Below, piece by piece: positions 1 to 16,442 of a stretch of 25,926 bases of DNA. Location: IMG/VR virus record IMGVR_UViG_3300046001_001496, positions 1 to 25,926 of that record; one strand, written 5' to 3'. Both the position numbers and the translations under genes were made by a program. This DNA comes from a virus. Below the pieces are notes generated by a model. It made no database searches. It saw nothing but the letters and a program-made list of their open reading frames with translations, and was not told the DNA's origin. Each line of letters opens with the position of its first letter. Within the stretch, counting starts at the first letter, position 1.

Positions 1-3000
1 GGAGTTGCGCATGGAGTACCCCTCGTTGGCCATTCGGAACGTGGACATCACGTCGCTCACACCCTTCGGCATGGCCTTCTCCACAGCCTTGTACGGCTCT
101 CCATCTCTGGCCAACCCCACCGCATCCGCCATCTTGCCTGCTACAGCACCCGTTGGGCCGAGGGCGATGCCGCCTGCGGTCTTGAACAACCCCGCAGCAC
201 TGTCAAGCTCGAAGTCGGTGTACGGCGCGATGGAGATGATGTTCTGCTGCCCCAGCTTGGCGGACGCATCCAGCCCAAGCATGGAGAAGGGCCCCTTCAG
301 GATCAGGTCAGCCGCAGCGCCACCACCAAGCTGTTCACGCATCCAGCGTTCCAGGTCTGCAGGCTCGTCATCGTCGCCACCCATGAAGGCGAACGCCATT
401 GCCGCCAGGTTCATCAGCGGCAGGCCCAGTGCGCCAGCAGCCATGGAGGCGTGGAACAGCATGAACCCGAGGGTCTTCCGTCCTAGCGCCTTGGTGTTGG
501 CGTCATCATTCATGAACGCCTGACCGAACGCCTTGGCGTAGATACCCGCCATCAGCATCTGGTACTTACGGTACTGGCCGGTCACCTTCGGTAGCTTCTT
601 GAGCAGCAACGGCGCAGCGTTTCGGCCAAAGTTACCCTGCGTGTCGGTGACCATCTCCACTGCATAGCCTGCGGGGTCTTTCATTTTTGCAGCAACCGCC
701 AGGTTGTACGCTGCGGTCACCGTGGATACCCGGTTGTATGCCTCCACCAGACGCGCTATCTGATACAGCTTGTGGACAACTGCGGCCACTACCCCAGACG
801 CACCGTCAATCAGCTTGTACCCCGTACGGAACCGGCTGAAGCTGGACAAGTCCTCCTCCATACCCACATCGAGCACACCCATCAACTGGGCACGCTCCAG
901 CGCTTCCCGCAACCCCTTCGGCACCTTGCTGAGGTCAATCCCGACTTGCAGGCGCTTCGGATCGAAGGACACCACGCCATAGGCCACTTTGTAGCCGTTG
1001 ATGAGGGCACCCATAGACGGGGTGTAGCCGAATTGTGCAGCCAGTTTAGGCAGGGCCACCATGAATGTCTGCGTGGCGTTGGCCACGTGGTAGCCCAGGC
1101 TGGTGGTAAGCAGCCAGACCGTTGTGGCCGCAGCGAGGCGGTCCTGAATCGGGGTATCCACACGGGTCAGCATGTCGGTGTAGTGCGCTGTGATCAGGTT
1201 CATCGACTCCGTGTCGCGGGTAGCCCTGGCCTGGTCGTGCATCTCACTGTAGGCTTTGTTGGTAGCGGCACCGAACTCCATGTTGGCAACGAACGATGCC
1301 TCAGCCTTCGACTGACTCAGGAACGACCGGATCATGTCCTGATCGTAGCCCGCACGGTTTAGACGCTTGATGCCGGTCAGGCGGGCGTTGTTCTCATCCA
1401 GTGACTGGAAGTACATGTCGGTGATCATCTTCTCGAATGCCTTCTTCGCTGCCGGGTCCAGGTTCTTGTCGGCACCCAGCGCACCCATCACCTTCTCCAG
1501 CACGGTGTAGTTCGGCGCACGTCCATCCTGCTCACGGTCTGCGCTGACGAAGTTCTCTGCCGAAGCATAGTTAGCCGCATTGGCACGGACGAAGTTGCGA
1601 GCCTGCCCCGCCGTGTCGAAGTAAGACACCATGAACTCAGCCGGGTTGGACTTCAGAGCATCGACCGCATCCTGGTTGGCCTTGGTCTTGTTCTTCTCCA
1701 GTGCAGCTTCAGCAGCCAGCACCTTGGCAGATTTCAGCAAGCCGACGTGGCTACCAAAACGCTTCAATGGAGCATACGGCCCCACCAGTTTACCCAGTCC
1801 GAAGAACTCACTGCTCACGCCAAACTTCTTGGCGATCTCCCGCTTCAGGGTGTTCATCTCCTCGCCGTGTGCGAACACCTGCTTGACGATGGCCTGCTGC
1901 TTCGGGTTCAGCTTGTTGAACTCACGCGCCATCGCTGGGTCGACCGTCACCGTCCGCCCCTTGAACTTCGGGTCATAGCCCCACTTGCCCTGGAACGTCG
2001 AGTCGCCGATGAACTTGTTGACGTCTTTCAGCTCGGCGCTGCTCAGCTCGCGGGCCTGGGTGGCGACCACCTCGGCCTTCTTCTCCAGTTCGGTGCGGCG
2101 CATCTGCGCCCCGTTGATCGCTTCCAACCACTTCGGTGCTGAGGTCAGGGTTTTGGACACGTCCTTCACCAAGGTGTGCAGGAACTTCACGTTGCCAGCC
2201 GCCTGTTTAAGCACCGACTTGAGGTCCGCGTACATGGACACCCCCGTCTTACCCATCACCTTGGCGATGTGGTCCTCGGCAGCGATGGAGAACAACCGGC
2301 TCTCGGGTTTCGCCCCGGCTTCGGTGAAGATGCGCTGGATGTTCTCATCGTTGAATACGACGATGTTGCGAGTTTGGTCCGCTGGAGCGTTGTACCAGTT
2401 AAGGTACGCAACGAACTGCTTATCCAGTTCTGGCGACAGTTCGTAGTTGCGGCGCATCGCATCTATGCCATCTGAACGAAGCGCGTCCATAACCTCGGAC
2501 ATATGGTCAAAACCTAGGTACTCGTCCGCGCGAATGGCGTCGAGCAGCGCAAAGTTGCCGGGGTAGCTTGTTGTGGCTCTGAGGTTGCCTCGGCTGTTCG
2601 CATCCAGGAACTTGATACCCTTGACCCCGATGGAGTCGAGGTACTCGCTGGCGGCTTTCTTGCCGTCCGTACCCATGTTGTTGTACTTCATGTTGTCCAC
2701 AAGGTCTCTGTAGATGCCCTTGCCGGTGTTTCCATCGACGGTTACATCCATAGAACCTGAATCGTTGGCAGCGTTTAGCGCGTCTCGCACCGCTTGTGGT
2801 TGCTGGTCAAACCTGGCGTCCCAGTCCAGCAGCTCGTCATCCTGGATCGACGTATCGACGCGCATTAGCGCGCCCTCTGGCTTTTGTTTTTTACCAATCT
2901 TGGCGGGGTCCAGTGCCATGAACTCAGTGAAAACTGGATCGCTCTCAGCGTAGCCAAATTCGCGCATCAGATCACGTTTCGTATACGCATCCAGCGTCTT

Positions 3001-6000
3001 TACTGGGTTTCCTACCGTCTGGGTGGCCCAGTCGTACGCGCGCTTTAGTTCGCGGATAGCCTTCCCTCTGGGGGTGTCGTCGTCCTTGGCGATGGGCGTT
3101 CCGTCGTAGGTATCCGCTGCTTTACGCCGCACGTCCTGTTCCCAGTACTCACGACCAATGCCCACGCGCTGAGCCAAGTAAGTACCCCAGCCGTATGCCT
3201 GCGCGCCCTCACCGGACCCCATGTAGTCGTGGTCGAACTTGCGGAAGCGGGCAGCGGTGCCGTGCCATGCGGCGTTCAGCTCCATCCGGGCTGCGCCATA
3301 GGCCAGATCGACAACGTGCTGGGCTTTCATCTTCTCGGGGGTCATGCCGAGCTTGCGGATGGCGACCTTGACTGCAGCCCACAAAGATCGGAACCATTGC
3401 TGCAGCGTGCCGCCGCCTTTGACTGCGGTGGGGTCAATACCCATCGCCACGGCTTCTTCGACGAAGTACGCCAGCAGTTCCTCGCTCTCGGTCTCACGGG
3501 ACATGGGCTTCTCGCCCATCTCGGCAACCTTGGCCTTGGCTTTTTCTACCCGCTCGCGGGCCTTGGAGATCAACTTGGCCTCAGTGGTGGTGTCTCCGCT
3601 CATCGCGTCGATCTCCCACATCTCCAGCTGCTTGATCAGGCGGTCGTACATATTCTGGCCGAGCAGATTCTTCATGCCCATGTGGACACCGACTTCGTGC
3701 AGTAGTACCGACAGCTCCCGACCTTCCGGGATGTTGCTGGCGATCATGTAGACCTTGTTGGTCTCCGGGTAGAAGAACCCTTGCACCTTGCCCGGAGTCT
3801 CGGACAGCACCTTGCGCTCACCTGCCGGTAGGTTGGCGTCGTTCTCGTCCTGCACCACCGTCACCGCCCGGTTGAAGAAGTACGGGCTGTTGAAGAAACC
3901 CTTGAGCTTGGCTTCGAGCTGCGCGGCAGGTTGACCCCGGGTGGTGGGGGCGACGGAGCGCTTGGTTACCGCATTGTCTGCATTTCTTCCATCCGCAGTT
4001 TGGACAGCACCGGAGTCATTTCCTCCACGAACTTGCGATCCTTCGGCTCCGTTGACCCCTGCATCGTTCCCAGCAGCTTCTCCAGCTCGTCCGCTGTCAG
4101 CGACACTCGGTGTGTCGGCGGTGCCTTCGGGGCGGGCGACGACCCGCCGCTTTTTTGTTTTGACAACAGCGCTTGTTGTCGGGTTGCTTGCGGTCCAAGT
4201 CGGCTCGCTTCCAGCCACGCTTTCAGCTTCGGCTTGTCTGCTGCCACTGCGTCCGCCGCCGCTGGGTCCATCTTCTCCAGCCTCGTCGCTACGTTCAGAA
4301 ACTTCGGTGTAACCGGCATTTACGACCCCCTCAAATTGATTGTGCAGCCATGTTAACGACTTCCCGTCCCACGAGGTGTATGCGGCAACTACTGCGGCAG
4401 ATTCATCAGTGGACAGCTCGTCAGCGTTCGGTACCTCTCCGCCATCTTTTCTGTGCAGGTGGGCAAAGCTGTTGTACGCTTGGGCCGCATGTATAACGTC
4501 CATTGTATCCACACCAATATCCGCTGTGGTACCAAGCTCCTCCGCCGCTTGTGCTTCAGCTTCTGTAACGTCCCCCTCCTCGCCCTCAGTCACCTCTTCA
4601 CGTGTATTTCCGGCGGTGGGGTCGAACTCGTCACTCTCAGCACGAATCTCCTTAACACCGTCGCGCTTACGGAAGGACAACCCTGCCTGAGCGGCAGCGG
4701 CGTCTGAGATAGGCACAACATCCAACGCGTCGTTCTTAGCCAGACCAAGTTGCTCAAGCGCGAGCTTCTCAGAGATTCCTGCCTTCGATGCCGCATGGCG
4801 AATCAATGCTAGTGTGTTCTCGTTCCAATTCTTAACGGTCTGATGAGACACCCCGAATTTCTTGGCGGTAGCGCGAAGCGAGGACGGCCCCTCATCAGAA
4901 TCTTGGGTCAACAATGCCAGTTGGTTACCCACCTTCAGTTCATCGGACCTGTTAGGCGTCGCGCGGCCAGACCGTTGCAGCTGCTCCTTCATGAGCAGCG
5001 AGTGCATCTCTAGGGTCTGCTCTGGGGTCATGCCGCCATTAGCCACACCGTGGAAGTACTTAACCGCGTCCCACTTTTTTGGGGCTACAGCGGAAATAAG
5101 GTACTCCTCGACTTTACCAACGCTTTCAGGTGCTGGCGCTGTGGGGTCGACTATCTTACCTACGCGTGGCCCGCCCTCAACCACTGGGGCACTCGGCTCA
5201 TTCCAGGCTACCACCTCCTTGCCCTCAGCGTCGAACGTGACCTTCTTGACCTGGCCCTTCGCCAAGCGCTGCTCGTCCGTCAGGGGGGCTTCCACAGCAA
5301 CTTCCGGTGCGACGTACTTAGACATTAATGCCCGAGCGTCAGCAATCTTGTTCTTGTTGATGAGCCTCTCGATGACGCCACGTTTCTTCTCGGGAATCAG
5401 CTCTGTCTTGGCGGTGAGTTCTTCGTACGCGGCGGTGCGCTCCTGCAGCTGCTCGTCTGCACGCTGCTCCGGTGTCGGCTTGGCGGGCTTGGCCTGAGGT
5501 GTTGCCGATGGGGCGGGTTGCTGCGAGATTTTTGCCAGCGCGTCTTCAACAGCGGGCGCATTGTTCTGGTAGAACTGGATGTCCTCCGGTGTTTCCAGCT
5601 TCTTGCCGGCAGCGATCTCCTGAGCGAAGGACTCCGGGGTGCGTTCCTGAACTGAGGTTTGAGTACCCCCCTGGTCGTGCTCGAACATATCTTGACGGGC
5701 CTGCATCTCCTGGCCAAGTGCTTCGCGTAGGTGCGTGCTGGTCGGGTCATCCCGTTCCAGTAGCATGTTGTGCATATTGACCAGCTGCTCGTCCTGCATC
5801 CAGCCAAACATGGAGTCGCGTACTTCACCGGCTTTCCGTGCCAGACGGGCGTCGGCTTCTGCGGCGGGATCAACACTGAGTTCATACAGGAACTGCTCAA
5901 ACCCACTGGTCGTAGTCTTGGGTACCCCATCGGCGACGAACGCCTGTTCCTTCGCGTCCCAGTGCCCCTGGATGGCTGTCGGGTCGATTGCCCCCTTGAA

Positions 6001-8468: not shown

Positions 8469-9386
8469 TCACTTATAGACATAACCGCGAGCCAGCATGG
8501 AACCGTCGATGACTTTGTAGCCAAAGACTTGCAAGCCGCGCATGATGTTGCCGAAGGTGGACTCTGCACGCAGGGTCTCGGTCTTCACCAGCTGAGAAGC
8601 GAACGTGAGTCCGTTCTTGTGACCGGCCAGAATGTCATAGCACTGGTTAGCGCCATCAGTGACACGCGGCAGGTTGTTGCTGGTGTACGCAGTGAAGCGG
8701 TCGATCATACCGATGCGGCCATTGCGCATGACAGAGGTGCTGTCGCCAGTCAGAGAGGCGTCCTTCAGGTCGGACTTCTTGAGCAGGTTAACCGCCCAGA
8801 AAGGCAACAGGAGGAAACGGCCAGCTTCAGGTACGTTCTGCTCATCCAGCACGGAACCCAAGTCAACGATGTACTCCAGGATGGTGCTCTTGGACAGCTG
8901 GATCGGAGTGCCGGTGACGCCAAGGCTGTATCCACCTGAGACTTTACCTGCAGTAGCACCTTTGTTGGCCGCAGCCACGTCGGGAGCAATGCCGCCCAGA
9001 ACGGAACGGTCGATGGCGATCTTCATCTGCTCGGAAGCGTCGGAAGCCCACATGTTCATCAAGCCGATGTCGGACTGGACAACCTGCACATCGTCAACGA
9101 TGGCAGACCAGTATTTGCCTTGGTCGATCAGCAACTCGACATTGCTGCTTTCCGGGCGTTGGTTGACCAGGGTCTGGCCCGACTTGTAGTCGTTGATTTC
9201 CAGGCTGGGGATGGTGCGAATCTTGACCTTGTCGCCTTGGCCTTTGATCTCGCCCTCGTAGTTGGTGTTGGAGATCGCTGCGAGCACGGTGGCGTCGTAG
9301 AACTTCTCGATCAATTTGGAAGACCAAATCTCCGGGATGAAGGTACCGCTATAGCTGGGGCTGCCAGCTGCATTGGGATAAGCCAT
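8469..9386 (-). CDS. Major capsid protein, 305 aa (HK97-fold type)
   Basis: The product forms the icosahedral shell. Recognisable family stretches are FIPEIWSSKLIEKFY (residues 16-30), then SNTNYEGEIKGQGDKVKIRT, LLIDQGKYWSAIVDDVQVVQSD and DASEQMKIAIDRSVLGGI, all typical of a widespread podovirus/siphovirus coat family of about 300-350 residues. Later parts include FLLLPFWAVNLLKKSDLKD and the C-terminal GLQVFGYKVIDGSMLARGYVYK. A strong Shine-Dalgarno (AGGAG) precedes ATG at 9386. The gene lies between scaffold and decoration genes, the usual order. No N-terminal prohead-protease signal is visible, consistent with a separate scaffold protein upstream. Confidence 0.92.
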   Translation of the reverse strand: MAYPNAAGSPSYSGTFIPEIWSSKLIEKFYDATVLAAISNTNYEGEIKGQGDKVKIRTIPSLEINDYKSGQTLVNQRPESSNVELLIDQGKYWSAIVDDVQVVQSDIGLMNMWASDASEQMKIAIDRSVLGGIAPDVAAANKGATAGKVSGGYSLGVTGTPIQLSKSTILEYIVDLGSVLDEQNVPEAGRFLLLPFWAVNLLKKSDLKDASLTGDSTSVMRNGRIGMIDRFTAYTSNNLPRVTDGANQCYDILAGHKNGLTFASQLVKTETLRAESTFGNIMRGLQVFGYKVIDGSMLARGYVYK

Positions 9387-10646: not shown

Positions 10647-10796
10647 TTAGCAGACCTTGCCGCCCTTCTTGAACGGCATGAAGCCTTTCTTGGCTTCCTT
10701 CTTCTCCACCGCGCCGCGCGCTTTAGGGGCCATCTTGGCTTCCTTCTTCTCTTCGCGTTTCGGCTCTTTACCTTCACTCAAGAACTTGGGTTTCAT
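10647..10796 (-). CDS. Small Lys/Glu-rich protein, 49 aa
   Basis: A short gene with a clear ribosome site (TAGGAG, then ATG at 10796), ending one base before the next start. The product begins MKPKFLSEGKEPKREEK and ends GFMPFKKGGKVC. It is highly basic overall, with the hexapeptide EKKEAK occurring twice (residues 16-21 and 31-36). Very basic small proteins with an 'FKKGG' tail occur next to phage portal genes, but no function is established to my knowledge. It could bind DNA or acidic scaffold. The 54-bp gap upstream holds the perfect palindrome at 10834-10847. Confidence 0.7.
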   Translation of the reverse strand: MKPKFLSEGKEPKREEKKEAKMAPKARGAVEKKEAKKGFMPFKKGGKVC

Positions 10797-12883: not shown

Positions 12884-12897
12884 TGTTTACGCGTTAG
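12884..12897. repeat. Imperfect palindrome at the stop codon of the 533-aa gene
   Basis: Plus-strand GTTTACGCGTTAGC matches the left arm (GTTTAC) of the 10834 palindrome exactly, and the right arm has two mismatches against GTAAAC. The TAA stop of the 533-aa gene lies inside it. It is the weakest member of the family and could be coincidence. Confidence 0.35.
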
Positions 12898-14488
12898 CTT
12901 GTTGGCCCTTGCGAGCGGCGGCAACCATCTTGGTCAGTCGATCCAGGCCAAAGTGCTGCACAGCTTCCACTGGCATCACAAATTCCCCCGTCGACAGCGC
13001 CGCAGGGCGCTTGCCGTCTATGATAGCAGGGATGGAGTCCGACTTCCCGGTACCCGGCCCGAGGACTTGCTGCCCCTCAACCTCAATAGCCCCACCCGCA
13101 GCATACCCTTGCGGCTGACCCGGCTGCGCCCCGGCTGGTGCCTGCTGCATCTTCGCCTGCGTCGCGGCCAGCAGACCGACGAACTTCTCCATCGGCAGCG
13201 GCTGCACCCCCGCCTGCATAGCGGCATGAACGTACTGGCCATAGCGGGCGGTCATTGGGTCTTGCTGCGGGGCTGCACCAATGGCACCGATCATGCCGCC
13301 TTCAGCGAAGTTCTCCGGAGTGGCTGTGAATGCGAACTCAGACATCTTGGTCATCTCGTCATCCAGTCCCTGCACCCGCGCCAAATACTTCTGGTACATG
13401 GGGTTTGCAGCGTCCTTCTTTGGGTCTCCGGTACTCATCGTGGCCAGCTGGTCCACCAGGGCTTTGTACTGTTGCGCCTTCCCGGCCACTCCGACGCGTG
13501 CGGCGTTGGTGCCTGCATTGGTTCTTGCCGCAGCGCCTTGAGAATCGTAGTACCGCGCCTGAGCATCGGCTTGTCTGATCTGCGCCGGCCCGTACAGCGC
13601 CTGGTGCGCAGCTTCCTGGTTGGCCTTGTCCCGCTGGGTCAGTGCGCCCATTGCGCCGACCATGTTTGCAGTAGCGTCTCGCGCCATGCTGCCCATACGG
13701 GGTGCCATAGCCTGCAGCCTGTCTTCCATCGAAAGCGCCTGCGGCTTATTGGCGTGTGCCACCCACGCGTTCCAGTCAGCGTTGCTCTTGGCGGACTCAC
13801 GCGGCTCTGCTCTCGGTGCTGGTTTCTCTGCGACTGCAATCTTGGCAGGGGGCTGAATCGCTGCGGCTGGAGCTGAGCGGGGCACGGCTGGTTGCGCCCC
13901 GGCTTCTTGGGCGTATGTTGGCTTGTACCCAGCCAGCTCTCGAAACTCTTTGGCGCGGTATTGATTGGGCGTGTACTTGTCGCCGGTGAACCCAGACCGC
14001 GCTCCGGACACAAGTGCTGACGCGTCATTTGCCCACCCAGCCATAGACTCCCCACCTGGGATATTCGAGCGCCCCACGTCCTTGGCCAGCGCTTTACCAC
14101 CTTCCCACAGGGTGCGTGCGCCTCCTCCGACGTACTTGGCGGCGTCAACAAACCCACCAGCTGCGTACCGCTGCCCCATAAACTGATCGGTCGAGTACCC
14201 CGACCGCTGAAGGTCTTGCGCGTTGGTGCTGTTGTTCAGGTTACCGGCAACGGCCTGAGACCCGTACAGAGACGCTTGGCTCCGCGCCAGCGCACCTTGG
14301 TCCGCTCCGCGTTTGGCTTCGGTATCCGCATTCTTCCAGCCAATACCACTCTGGTTAGCCCGGTAATCCGCTTGGGAGCTGATGTCTGCCCCGTGCCAAG
14401 CACCCTCCTGGTTCGTCTTGAAGGTCTCCGCAGCCTGCTTCGCCATGTAGCTCTGGTTCGCCGCCTCAAACTGTCTACTGAAACTCAT
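12887..14488 (-). CDS. Internal virion / tape-measure-like protein, 533 aa
   Basis: A longer start at 14629 is open, but it would overlap the preceding gene by 131 bp. ATG at 14488 (MSFSRQFEAANQSYMAK) follows AAGGGG and matches the gap after the previous stop, so I choose it. The body is Ala/Gln/Gly-rich and helical, with a Pro/Ala linker in the middle. Near the C-terminus are FAEGGMIGAIG, YAAGGAIEVEGQQV and, from about residue 477, GPGTGKSDSIPA...LSTGEFVMPVEAV. This 'GPGTGTSDSIPA-LS-GE-V' block is a recurrent C-terminal module of phage tape-measure, tail-length and internal virion proteins. In a portal-proximal podovirus setting an ejected internal protein is most likely. Exact role not shown. 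Confidence 0.7.
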   Translation of the reverse strand: MSFSRQFEAANQSYMAKQAAETFKTNQEGAWHGADISSQADYRANQSGIGWKNADTEAKRGADQGALARSQASLYGSQAVAGNLNNSTNAQDLQRSGYSTDQFMGQRYAAGGFVDAAKYVGGGARTLWEGGKALAKDVGRSNIPGGESMAGWANDASALVSGARSGFTGDKYTPNQYRAKEFRELAGYKPTYAQEAGAQPAVPRSAPAAAIQPPAKIAVAEKPAPRAEPRESAKSNADWNAWVAHANKPQALSMEDRLQAMAPRMGSMARDATANMVGAMGALTQRDKANQEAAHQALYGPAQIRQADAQARYYDSQGAAARTNAGTNAARVGVAGKAQQYKALVDQLATMSTGDPKKDAANPMYQKYLARVQGLDDEMTKMSEFAFTATPENFAEGGMIGAIGAAPQQDPMTARYGQYVHAAMQAGVQPLPMEKFVGLLAATQAKMQQAPAGAQPGQPQGYAAGGAIEVEGQQVLGPGTGKSDSIPAIIDGKRPAALSTGEFVMPVEAVQHFGLDRLTKMVAAARKGQQANA

Positions 14489-14498
14489 AGTGATCCCC

Positions 14499-16442
14499 TT
14501 ACCTAGATAATGACTTGCTGCGCGAGTGCGAGTAGCTGCGTGACAAACTTCCGTTGTAACCCAGCGAGTTGTTTTCACTGGCAGAAGTGCCTGCACTGGC
14601 GTTCGCGTTGATCGAAACGCTAGTGCCAATCACTGAGTAAGCCGCCTGCGCCAAGCCCGCCATAATTGTAACAGTTGCGCCCAGTCTTCCCGCTTCTAGC
14701 CGCGTTTCATCAGCCTGTGCGCTGGTTCGTAAGGTGTCCTGCGTCAACTGAACTTCTGCGTTGTTAAGCTGCACCGACATATCGAATGCGCTCCACGCGG
14801 CGAATGCTCTGTTGTATGACGAGGTGTAGCTGCTCACCGTGTCCATGCTGGAGAGGTAGGTACTGAGCGCTCGCACAGAAGCGTTGACCTTATCTGACAT
14901 CGTGGCGATGTACGACCGTTGTGCAGCGGCATAGTCCTTGTACTCTGCCATCTCTGCGTTGATCACGCTGGATGCTGCATTCGCCCAGTTCTCGTAAGCG
15001 CCTGCTCGCGCACGCTCTGCGGACCAGAAGCTGCTGTAGCTCTGAATGTTCGCTTCCGTCACCTGAATCTTCGCGCTCTCCGCGCCGACGTAATCTGCGT
15101 AGGCAGACACATAAGCCACGTCGGTATCAATCGACTTCGAGTACGCGCCTACGGCAGTGCGGTACGCTTCCAGGTTCAGCTTGATCATCTTGATGTTGTT
15201 GTCCACCGCACCGATATAGGCTTCGTATTCCTTCACCGCAAGCAGCGCGTCCTCGACCTTTAGCGTGTTGATCCGGGCGATAGACTCTATCGTTGAGACC
15301 TGAGCTGAGTACGCATCCGTCTCGGCTTTGAAGGTCATCACCTTGGCGTTGATCGCGCCGAGTTCAGCATTGTGGCCGGCGTACTGTTCCAACACGGCAC
15401 GGATGTAGGCGCTGTACGCGCTCACCTGAATATTCAGTACCTTCACCTTGGCGTTGAACAATGCCGCGATTGAGTCGAACAGCGTGACGTGCAGTTTGAT
15501 ATTGTACTTCTGTGTCTCCAGCAGCTGCGCGTAATACTTCAACTGGACAGACGAGTGCTTGAGTTCGAGTGCCATCGCCTTCGCAATCGCAGTGTCGACC
15601 TGAGCGCGAGTGATTTTGTAGGTCTCGTCGCGCACCGCCTCCGCCGCTTCTAGGCGGGTGTATGCTGACTTCTTCGTCATCTCCAGCATCTTCGCCGTCG
15701 CCGCACCGTTGGGTAGTGAGAAGCCACGCGCGGCTGACTCGCCCATGATCTGCTGCTCGGCAACAATTTCGCTGTCGGTGATGACTTCGTTCGCCTGCTG
15801 GTACATCAGCTCGCGTGTGAGGAGGTCCAGTGCGGGCGAGCCTGCCATGACTTCAGTCAGCTTGGCGACGAGTGCGTCATCGTTGCGCGACAACACCAGA
15901 GGCAGCGCGTCATCCAGCGGTGTAGCGTCTACCGCGCCAGTCACAGGAACTGCGGCGTTGAACAGGTCAACGTCTGCCTCGATAAAGCCGCGCGTCAGAA
16001 TCTCCAGCATGGCTGGCCGGTCGCCGACACTAATTGAAGGTGCTAATTGCGTCACTAGACCCGCGCTGTCAGGGATGCTGATCAGACCAGCCTCTGGGTA
16101 CTGCGTGGGTGCGCCTGTCGCAGCTTGGTAGACCAGCGACGGAACTAATGGCGCTGTGCTGTAGGTCGGAGTGACCGCCATGTCTGGGTTTATAAAAGCA
16201 ATGACTTCCGTAGCCGCTGTGTAGGACGCGGCTTTCGCGTTCTCAGCCATGACGCCGAACGCGGGCACGGTATCTGTTGTGTAATCCGGTTGATCAGGCT
16301 GCGCCACCGGCTCAGCGACTTCAAGCTGGATAACCGGAAGATCGAACTCGGGCAGGTCAAGTTCGTAGTCGCCAGCTGAAGGCAGTTCGAGCCTGCCAGT
16401 GACACTGGTGTAGAGGGCGGGAATGGGTATGCTGAAGCTCAT
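14499..16442 (-). CDS. Large Ala-rich helical structural protein B, 647 aa (paralog of upstream gene)
   Basis: ATG at 16442 overlaps the stop of the 682-aa gene (ATGA). The N-terminus is acidic and Pro-rich (ELDLPEFDLPVIQLEVAEP). The body from about residue 230 to 560 is one long run of Ala/Tyr/Glu-rich helix with recurrent Tyr-x2-3-Ala spacing (QVSAYSAYIRAVLEQYAGHN; KEYEAYIGAVDNNIKMIKLN), suggesting a very long coiled coil or helical bundle. After LAQAAYSVIGTSVSINANAS it ends in a Ser/Gly/Asn tail, SYSHSRSKSLSR. Architecture and tail match the 682-aa neighbour. Likely a virion protein, for instance an internal/ejection or tail-shaft component, but I recognise no family. Confidence 0.65.
   Translation of the reverse strand: MSFSIPIPALYTSVTGRLELPSAGDYELDLPEFDLPVIQLEVAEPVAQPDQPDYTTDTVPAFGVMAENAKAASYTAATEVIAFINPDMAVTPTYSTAPLVPSLVYQAATGAPTQYPEAGLISIPDSAGLVTQLAPSISVGDRPAMLEILTRGFIEADVDLFNAAVPVTGAVDATPLDDALPLVLSRNDDALVAKLTEVMAGSPALDLLTRELMYQQANEVITDSEIVAEQQIMGESAARGFSLPNGAATAKMLEMTKKSAYTRLEAAEAVRDETYKITRAQVDTAIAKAMALELKHSSVQLKYYAQLLETQKYNIKLHVTLFDSIAALFNAKVKVLNIQVSAYSAYIRAVLEQYAGHNAELGAINAKVMTFKAETDAYSAQVSTIESIARINTLKVEDALLAVKEYEAYIGAVDNNIKMIKLNLEAYRTAVGAYSKSIDTDVAYVSAYADYVGAESAKIQVTEANIQSYSSFWSAERARAGAYENWANAASSVINAEMAEYKDYAAAQRSYIATMSDKVNASVRALSTYLSSMDTVSSYTSSYNRAFAAWSAFDMSVQLNNAEVQLTQDTLRTSAQADETRLEAGRLGATVTIMAGLAQAAYSVIGTSVSINANASAGTSASENNSLGYNGSLSRSYSHSRSKSLSR

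Follow-up and report, generated by a model that had tools for sequence, protein, structure and literature searches.

Genes that lie inside another gene and are read in a different frame are well known in bacteriophages, as in Rz/Rz1 of lambda and genes B, E and K of phiX174. These are single fixed pairs. The locus examined here lies in a gene of another kind, which encodes a polyvalent protein of the class described by Iyer et al. (2017, PMC5512222), a multi-domain giant with an HEXXXH zincin. HEXXXH zincins are one metallopeptidase class described for such proteins in that paper, and a search of its text turned up nothing on genes that are nested or overlap.

We analysed a stretch of 25,926 nucleotides of phage DNA (hereafter, the window), in which a 117-codon ORF, with the predicted product P0001, is enclosed in the +1 frame of such a giant gene. 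In its arrangement it resembles BA3_0004, a small +1 gene in BA3_0002, which is a giant hypothetical/DarB-like late gene by the head module. The family of BA3_0004 (family A) is under selection, but its protein sequence is unrelated to P0001 and the linker that it occupies is different. The MPFKS family (family C) likewise encodes a small protein nested at +1; it also occurs as a standalone gene and has no similarity to P0001. Family B, found in the giants L091, L092/L013 and L126/L134 and probably in L106, is read in the same frame as P0001, and in L091 and L092/L013 its linker, Shine-Dalgarno (SD) sequence, start and stop correspond in position to those of P0001. Its members are 46-54 aa long (104 in L106) and show no detectable similarity to P0001. 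Unlike Rz/Rz1 and the phiX174 genes, the inner genes of polyvalent giants vary between related hosts, one family can be both standalone and nested, and several genes per host gene are possible. No description of this recurrent gene-in-linker pattern was found in the open-access literature searched. Nested genes are already known singly; what these papers did not yield is a recurrent set of differing small genes in one class of giant gene and in one frame.

The P0001 reading frame and its host gene

The late genes of the window are on the minus strand, and the giant gene is located in the head module (Table 1). The giant protein has a distant likeness to DarB-like and polyvalent proteins and meets the criterion for the latter, the HEVGVH motif and the PLxRFG domain being clear and the ART-PolyVal signal only weak. 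Across the P0001 interval, the giant frame encodes a linker rich in G, S, R, D and N. Scans of bacterial genomes found no relatives of the zincin domain or of the whole giant. Rhizobium phage TM29 was considered as a relative and rejected; its capsid is related, but the giants have only the C-terminal domain in common.

Table 1. Coordinates of the P0001 ORF, its host gene and neighbouring features in the window
Feature	Position	Strand	Remarks
Putative nested +1-frame gene, 117 aa (P0001)	3966-4319	-	ATG at 4319, TAA at 3966; predicted all-helical, with a disordered stretch in the centre
SD-like GAGGGGG	4326-4332	-	6-nt spacer to the P0001 ATG
Host giant, polyvalent/PLxRFG (tail-700, DarB-like), at least 2362 aa	1-7086	-	runs off the window; downstream of the capsid gene
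Host-frame PLxRFG/tail-700 domain	10-1626	-	NF032893, E 1e-58
Host-frame region that distantly matches giants of other phages and of plasmids	2563-3273	-	weak ART-PolyVal signal
Host-frame zincin-like metallopeptidase domain	3343-3969	-	after the P0001 ORF; HEXXXH class in PMC5512222
HEVGVH active-site motif (HEXXXH)	3682-3699	-	
Host-frame short helical domain	4312-4509	-	before the P0001 ORF; inferred by eye; weak W/F-x-x-L motif common to relatives
Major capsid protein	8469-9386	-	PHROG head protein match

The P0001 ORF has a complete start, stop and ribosome site, all of them enclosed by the giant ORF, and in this respect it qualifies as a nested gene. Codon 17 is another ATG that is also led by an SD sequence. 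A sigma-70-like promoter was looked for just upstream and none was found. The structure model of P0001 is helical but mediocre (mean pLDDT 67, low confidence), and it gave no match in a fold search. An independent contig (L001) is 99.86% identical to the window over 10.96 kb and is identical in the P0001 region, a finding that speaks against an assembly error. This identity adds no evolutionary information. Of the 15 differences between the two sequences over the 10.96 kb, 14 lie within 317 bp of the capsid gene (8861-9177), and 13 of these 14 are synonymous, a clustering that suggests a recombination patch.

Elsewhere in the window, the 467-bp gap that separates a 319-aa from a 674-aa ORF holds a 19-bp direct repeat (TCTTGGCTTCCTTCTTCTC), at 10688-10706 and, 45 bp away, at 10733-10751. 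A 580-aa ORF at 12887-14629 of the minus strand is listed with a TTG start and in this form shares 131 bp with its upstream neighbour (14499-16442); its real start is probably located further downstream. An Rfam search of the window gave no hit, although novel RNA elements would escape it.

Evidence on whether P0001 is coding

An earlier note, made from the sequence alone, had described the 117-codon ORF, its GAGGGGG with a six-base spacer, a GC3 of about 70% and the use of CTG for 11 of 13 leucines, and all of these claims held. The GC content at the three codon positions (GC1/2/3 of.64/.47/.70) follows the same pattern as that of the genuine genes of the window. The claim that the other alternative-frame ORFs are unlike P0001 also held for those of at least 60 aa in the giant, among which only P0001 shows the high-low-high pattern; the other +1 ORFs show the reversed, shadow pattern (.35-.50/.57-.77/.57-.69). 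The codon log-odds score, for which 63 giants served as the training set, favours coding by 24 bits. As had been claimed, the giant frame passes through a low-complexity linker here and its GC3 is 0.47, compared with 0.71 gene-wide. The dip is partly regional, because it begins a few hundred bases upstream of P0001, where the giant GC3 is already about 0.52-0.55 from position 4785. Nevertheless, the giant third position is the second position of the nested frame, and its GC of 0.47 is to be compared with the 0.67 +/- 0.04 predicted by the codon use of the giant. Over the same interval, nested GC3 equals giant GC1.

The length of the ORF alone is no evidence of coding. When the giant was shuffled synonymously 1000 times, 26% of the shuffles contained an ATG-started +1 ORF of at least 117 aa, and 6.7% left the P0001 interval free of stops. 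The suggestion that 354 bp, being a multiple of three, hints at an insertion failed, since this is true of every ORF. Neither insertion nor de novo origin, the two possibilities that had been raised, is favoured for P0001; the MPFKS family shows both standalone and nested states.

Searches with P0001 of PHROGs, Pfam, NCBIfam, the PDB and phage records gave nothing significant, and an exact-peptide scan across viral contigs returned the near-identical contig only. No divergent homologue was found in family libraries, phage records or viral contigs, which is how the homology check proposed in the earlier note came out. P0001 has no convincing similarity to the nested ORFs at the same linker, and its sequence is not similar to that of family B (core W..FK..F...VR; z of 0.2 to L091 and -1.0 to L134), with which it agrees in position and frame only. 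It has no match to phrog_1375 and lacks the MPFKS core (MPFKSxAQRxxMxxxxPExAKxWxxETP). The same note had proposed that stops in this frame in related phages would refute the gene. The sole homologue is near-identical, and what the close relatives have at the matching site is another +1 gene, of 54 aa, and no broken copy. Because there is no divergent homologue, the selection on P0001 itself, its expression and its function are only inferred.

Small +1 genes in other polyvalent giants

A profile of the zincin domain, built from the window and L013, yielded 61 loci. The nearest giants with a nested ORF at the matching linker are L091 and L092, the latter being the same contig as L013, with a zincin identity of about 45%. 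In both, the two host domains that border P0001 also border a +1 ORF of 54 aa that is led by an SD sequence. Its start, like that of P0001, directly follows Phe-(Ser)-Glu of the host frame, and the two genes end within host GCG GTA (A/G). In L090, which is nearer (51%), the sequence starts only 608 bases before the motif and contains no such ORF; nor was a nested ORF found at this linker in the related giants L098 and L103-L105. Protein-like small +1 linker ORFs were found in other giants (L097/L099, L106, L115, L118, L126/L134, L128, L133, L136, L146, L148 and L305), and all nested ORFs that were scored as coding across the giants are at +1. In L129, a GTG-started, protein-like ORF of 93 aa (MSLDALRIALQGAGFPLSPIQLAVQGLLDELKK...) lies in the +2 frame, some 690-410 nt ahead of the zincin motif. 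It could be an exception to the +1 rule, or it could be an upstream neighbouring gene, because no more than 155 aa of the host ORF precede the motif.

The SD core was found at 28 of 62 nested starts and at 247 of 2842 (8.7%) other +1 ATGs, a fivefold enrichment (p 1e-13), which is somewhat biased in that some starts were picked by codon score and one list also by SD. In a control comparison with genes of 700-1500 aa, the counts were 15 in 434 kb for the giants and 1 in 199 kb for the controls. An earlier control on shorter genes was discarded, as false long ORFs and 5′ overlaps contaminated the set.

Constraint on a +1 protein would be expected to freeze host third positions (nested second) and to leave host first positions (nested third) freer. 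In 43 of 43 pairwise comparisons, nested ORFs had fewer host third-position substitutions than the flanking parts of the host. In 13 pairs chosen without common sequence, the pooled changes were 56/685 (8%) inside and 1236/3541 (35%) in the flanks (combined p about 4e-57). The nested gene of L097/L099 had 1/54 such changes inside and 61/300 outside. The synonymous-constraint check that had been proposed for the giant genes thus showed depletion inside the nested ORFs of other giants; the result for L091/L092 (2/55 inside versus 32/297 outside, p 0.07) is only suggestive. An ORF-blind synonymous-constraint scan of 68 giant pairs, not all of them independent, gave 80 informative segments. The +1 frame alone was open in 43 of these, +2 alone in one, both frames in five and neither frame in 31; among random segments, 19% are open in +1 alone. 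We had supposed that the +1 bias arises from fewer host-frame stops, but their frequency did not bear this out (4.45 vs 3.95 per 100 codons). For the genes of the window, +1 placement gives a more hydrophilic host linker than the other choice (GRAVY -0.92 vs -0.52), and this explains the bias only partly.

L127, L136, L115 and Thalassomonas phage BA3 all carry family A as a nested +1 gene. In BA3 it is the annotated BA3_0004; Vibrio phages vB_ValP_FGH and VvAW1 have it nested as well, but without an annotation. All 10 of its viral-contig matches are nested at +1. Between BA3 and FGH, the host third-position change is 0.23 inside family A and 0.57-0.74 outside, and most of the changes inside fall at the third position of the nested frame. 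The other nested CDS annotated in BA3, BA3_0003 (NC_009990.1, 5036-5380), has a TTG start and no coding-like look and, unlike BA3_0004, is probably a spurious call. Family C has the consensus MPFKSxAQRRWMxxNxPExAKxWEKETPK and a weak match to phrog_1375. Among its 80 loci, 44 are standalone small genes and 36 are nested in a larger frame, mostly in giants; all 36 nested copies are at +1. In many instances of the family, it is the nested third position that changes most often. The neighbours of four standalone copies (L156, L175, L202 and L230) look portal-like and terminase-like, by eye and with no profile test. Taken together, these results give good support to the view that polyvalent giants contain nested +1 genes that are under selection.

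In one clade of giants (L093, L101, L108, L116, L172, L168 and L141), the constraint scan also brought out three candidates in addition to MPFKS, likewise nested at +1. Their consensus sequences are KQLPGWEQYQSKAEQDKQMxExxGMYNPAxFNPSxQEVSLxDRLASKLDS (family D), MTFLQTLKNLGGMISSAVDKLTLLLLSKLSVKVLNLLAQRWPTKGLRQRALLELLKR (family E) and MNKPAKALWVAGKHPVNPSKPVQP (family F). Single giants can, therefore, hold several nested genes.

Interpretation and rival explanations

We think it likely, with a probability of about 0.8, that the P0001 ORF is a genuine nested gene with a separate small protein, its translation and its own selection being inferred. The position, frame, signals and composition of the ORF match this reading, as do the +1 genes of relatives at the same linker. 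The earlier note's proposal of a separate small protein beside the giant is, accordingly, supported by coding statistics, the SD sequence, the relatives' +1 genes and selection.

One could envision three alternatives. The ORF might be a chance open frame that is not translated, in which the host-linker codons starting with G yield a high nested GC3 and many CTG codons. The equality of giant GC1 and nested GC3, the absence of homologues of P0001 and the 26% of shuffles with a +1 ORF of this length speak for it. We regard it as unlikely, as the second-position GC (0.47 rather than the expected 0.67), the SD sequence and the codon log-odds argue against it, and so do the +1 ORFs that recur at this site in close giants and those under selection in other giants. 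Another scenario is that the ORF is a decayed remnant, a once-separate gene that was read through upon fusion into the giant and remains as an unused fossil that looks coding. The giant frame over the interval does resemble the out-of-frame translation of a gene, and the SD sequence, start and stop are spaced as in a gene. Families A and C, however, keep the nested start and stop over large divergence, unlike a fossil, and we consider this explanation very unlikely.

A third possibility is that the constraint seen in the relatives reflects an RNA element or regulation, such as a frameshift signal, and no nested protein. Synonymous depletion alone is no proof of a protein, and novel elements are missed by Rfam. 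Against this, substitutions fall most often on nested third positions in family A of BA3/FGH and in many family C copies, amino-acid similarity holds across phages of very different GC, and MPFKS homologues that stand alone are small genes of the ordinary kind. This possibility also seems very unlikely.

In the nested-gene reading, ribosomes would initiate internally at the GAGGGGG-ATG on the giant's own mRNA, and the +1 frame would give a separate, mostly helical protein of 117 aa. The same DNA in the giant frame would encode a hydrophilic, disordered linker from the small helical domain to the zincin-like peptidase domain of what would be a polyvalent DNA-ejection/anti-host protein. P0001 may be co-expressed with the giant late in infection. 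The most economical guess for its role is in virion assembly or as an accessory or partner of the giant, because the giant is in the head module and standalone MPFKS homologues can adjoin portal-/terminase-like genes; this, too, is inferred. The linker before the zincin would be a recurrent site that holds different small genes in relatives, at the matching place and likewise at +1. Thus one gene family can take the place of another, whereas the placement of a gene in the linker is retained. P0001, at +1 in an inter-domain linker of a polyvalent giant, meets the criterion for the gene-in-linker class as defined here.

A bolder reading, towards which we lean only slightly, is that the linkers of the giants are replaceable docking sites that capture unrelated, separately translated +1 genes, often several per giant, with one stretch of DNA serving as linker and second gene; P0001 would be an orphan example. 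The recurrent set of nested genes implies that gene callers that bar long same-strand overlaps miss small phage genes, and it accounts for odd linkers of polyvalent proteins as shadows of other genes. It also offers natural pairs for testing how a gene enters another gene, and the nested products are testable partner candidates for the poorly understood injected giants.
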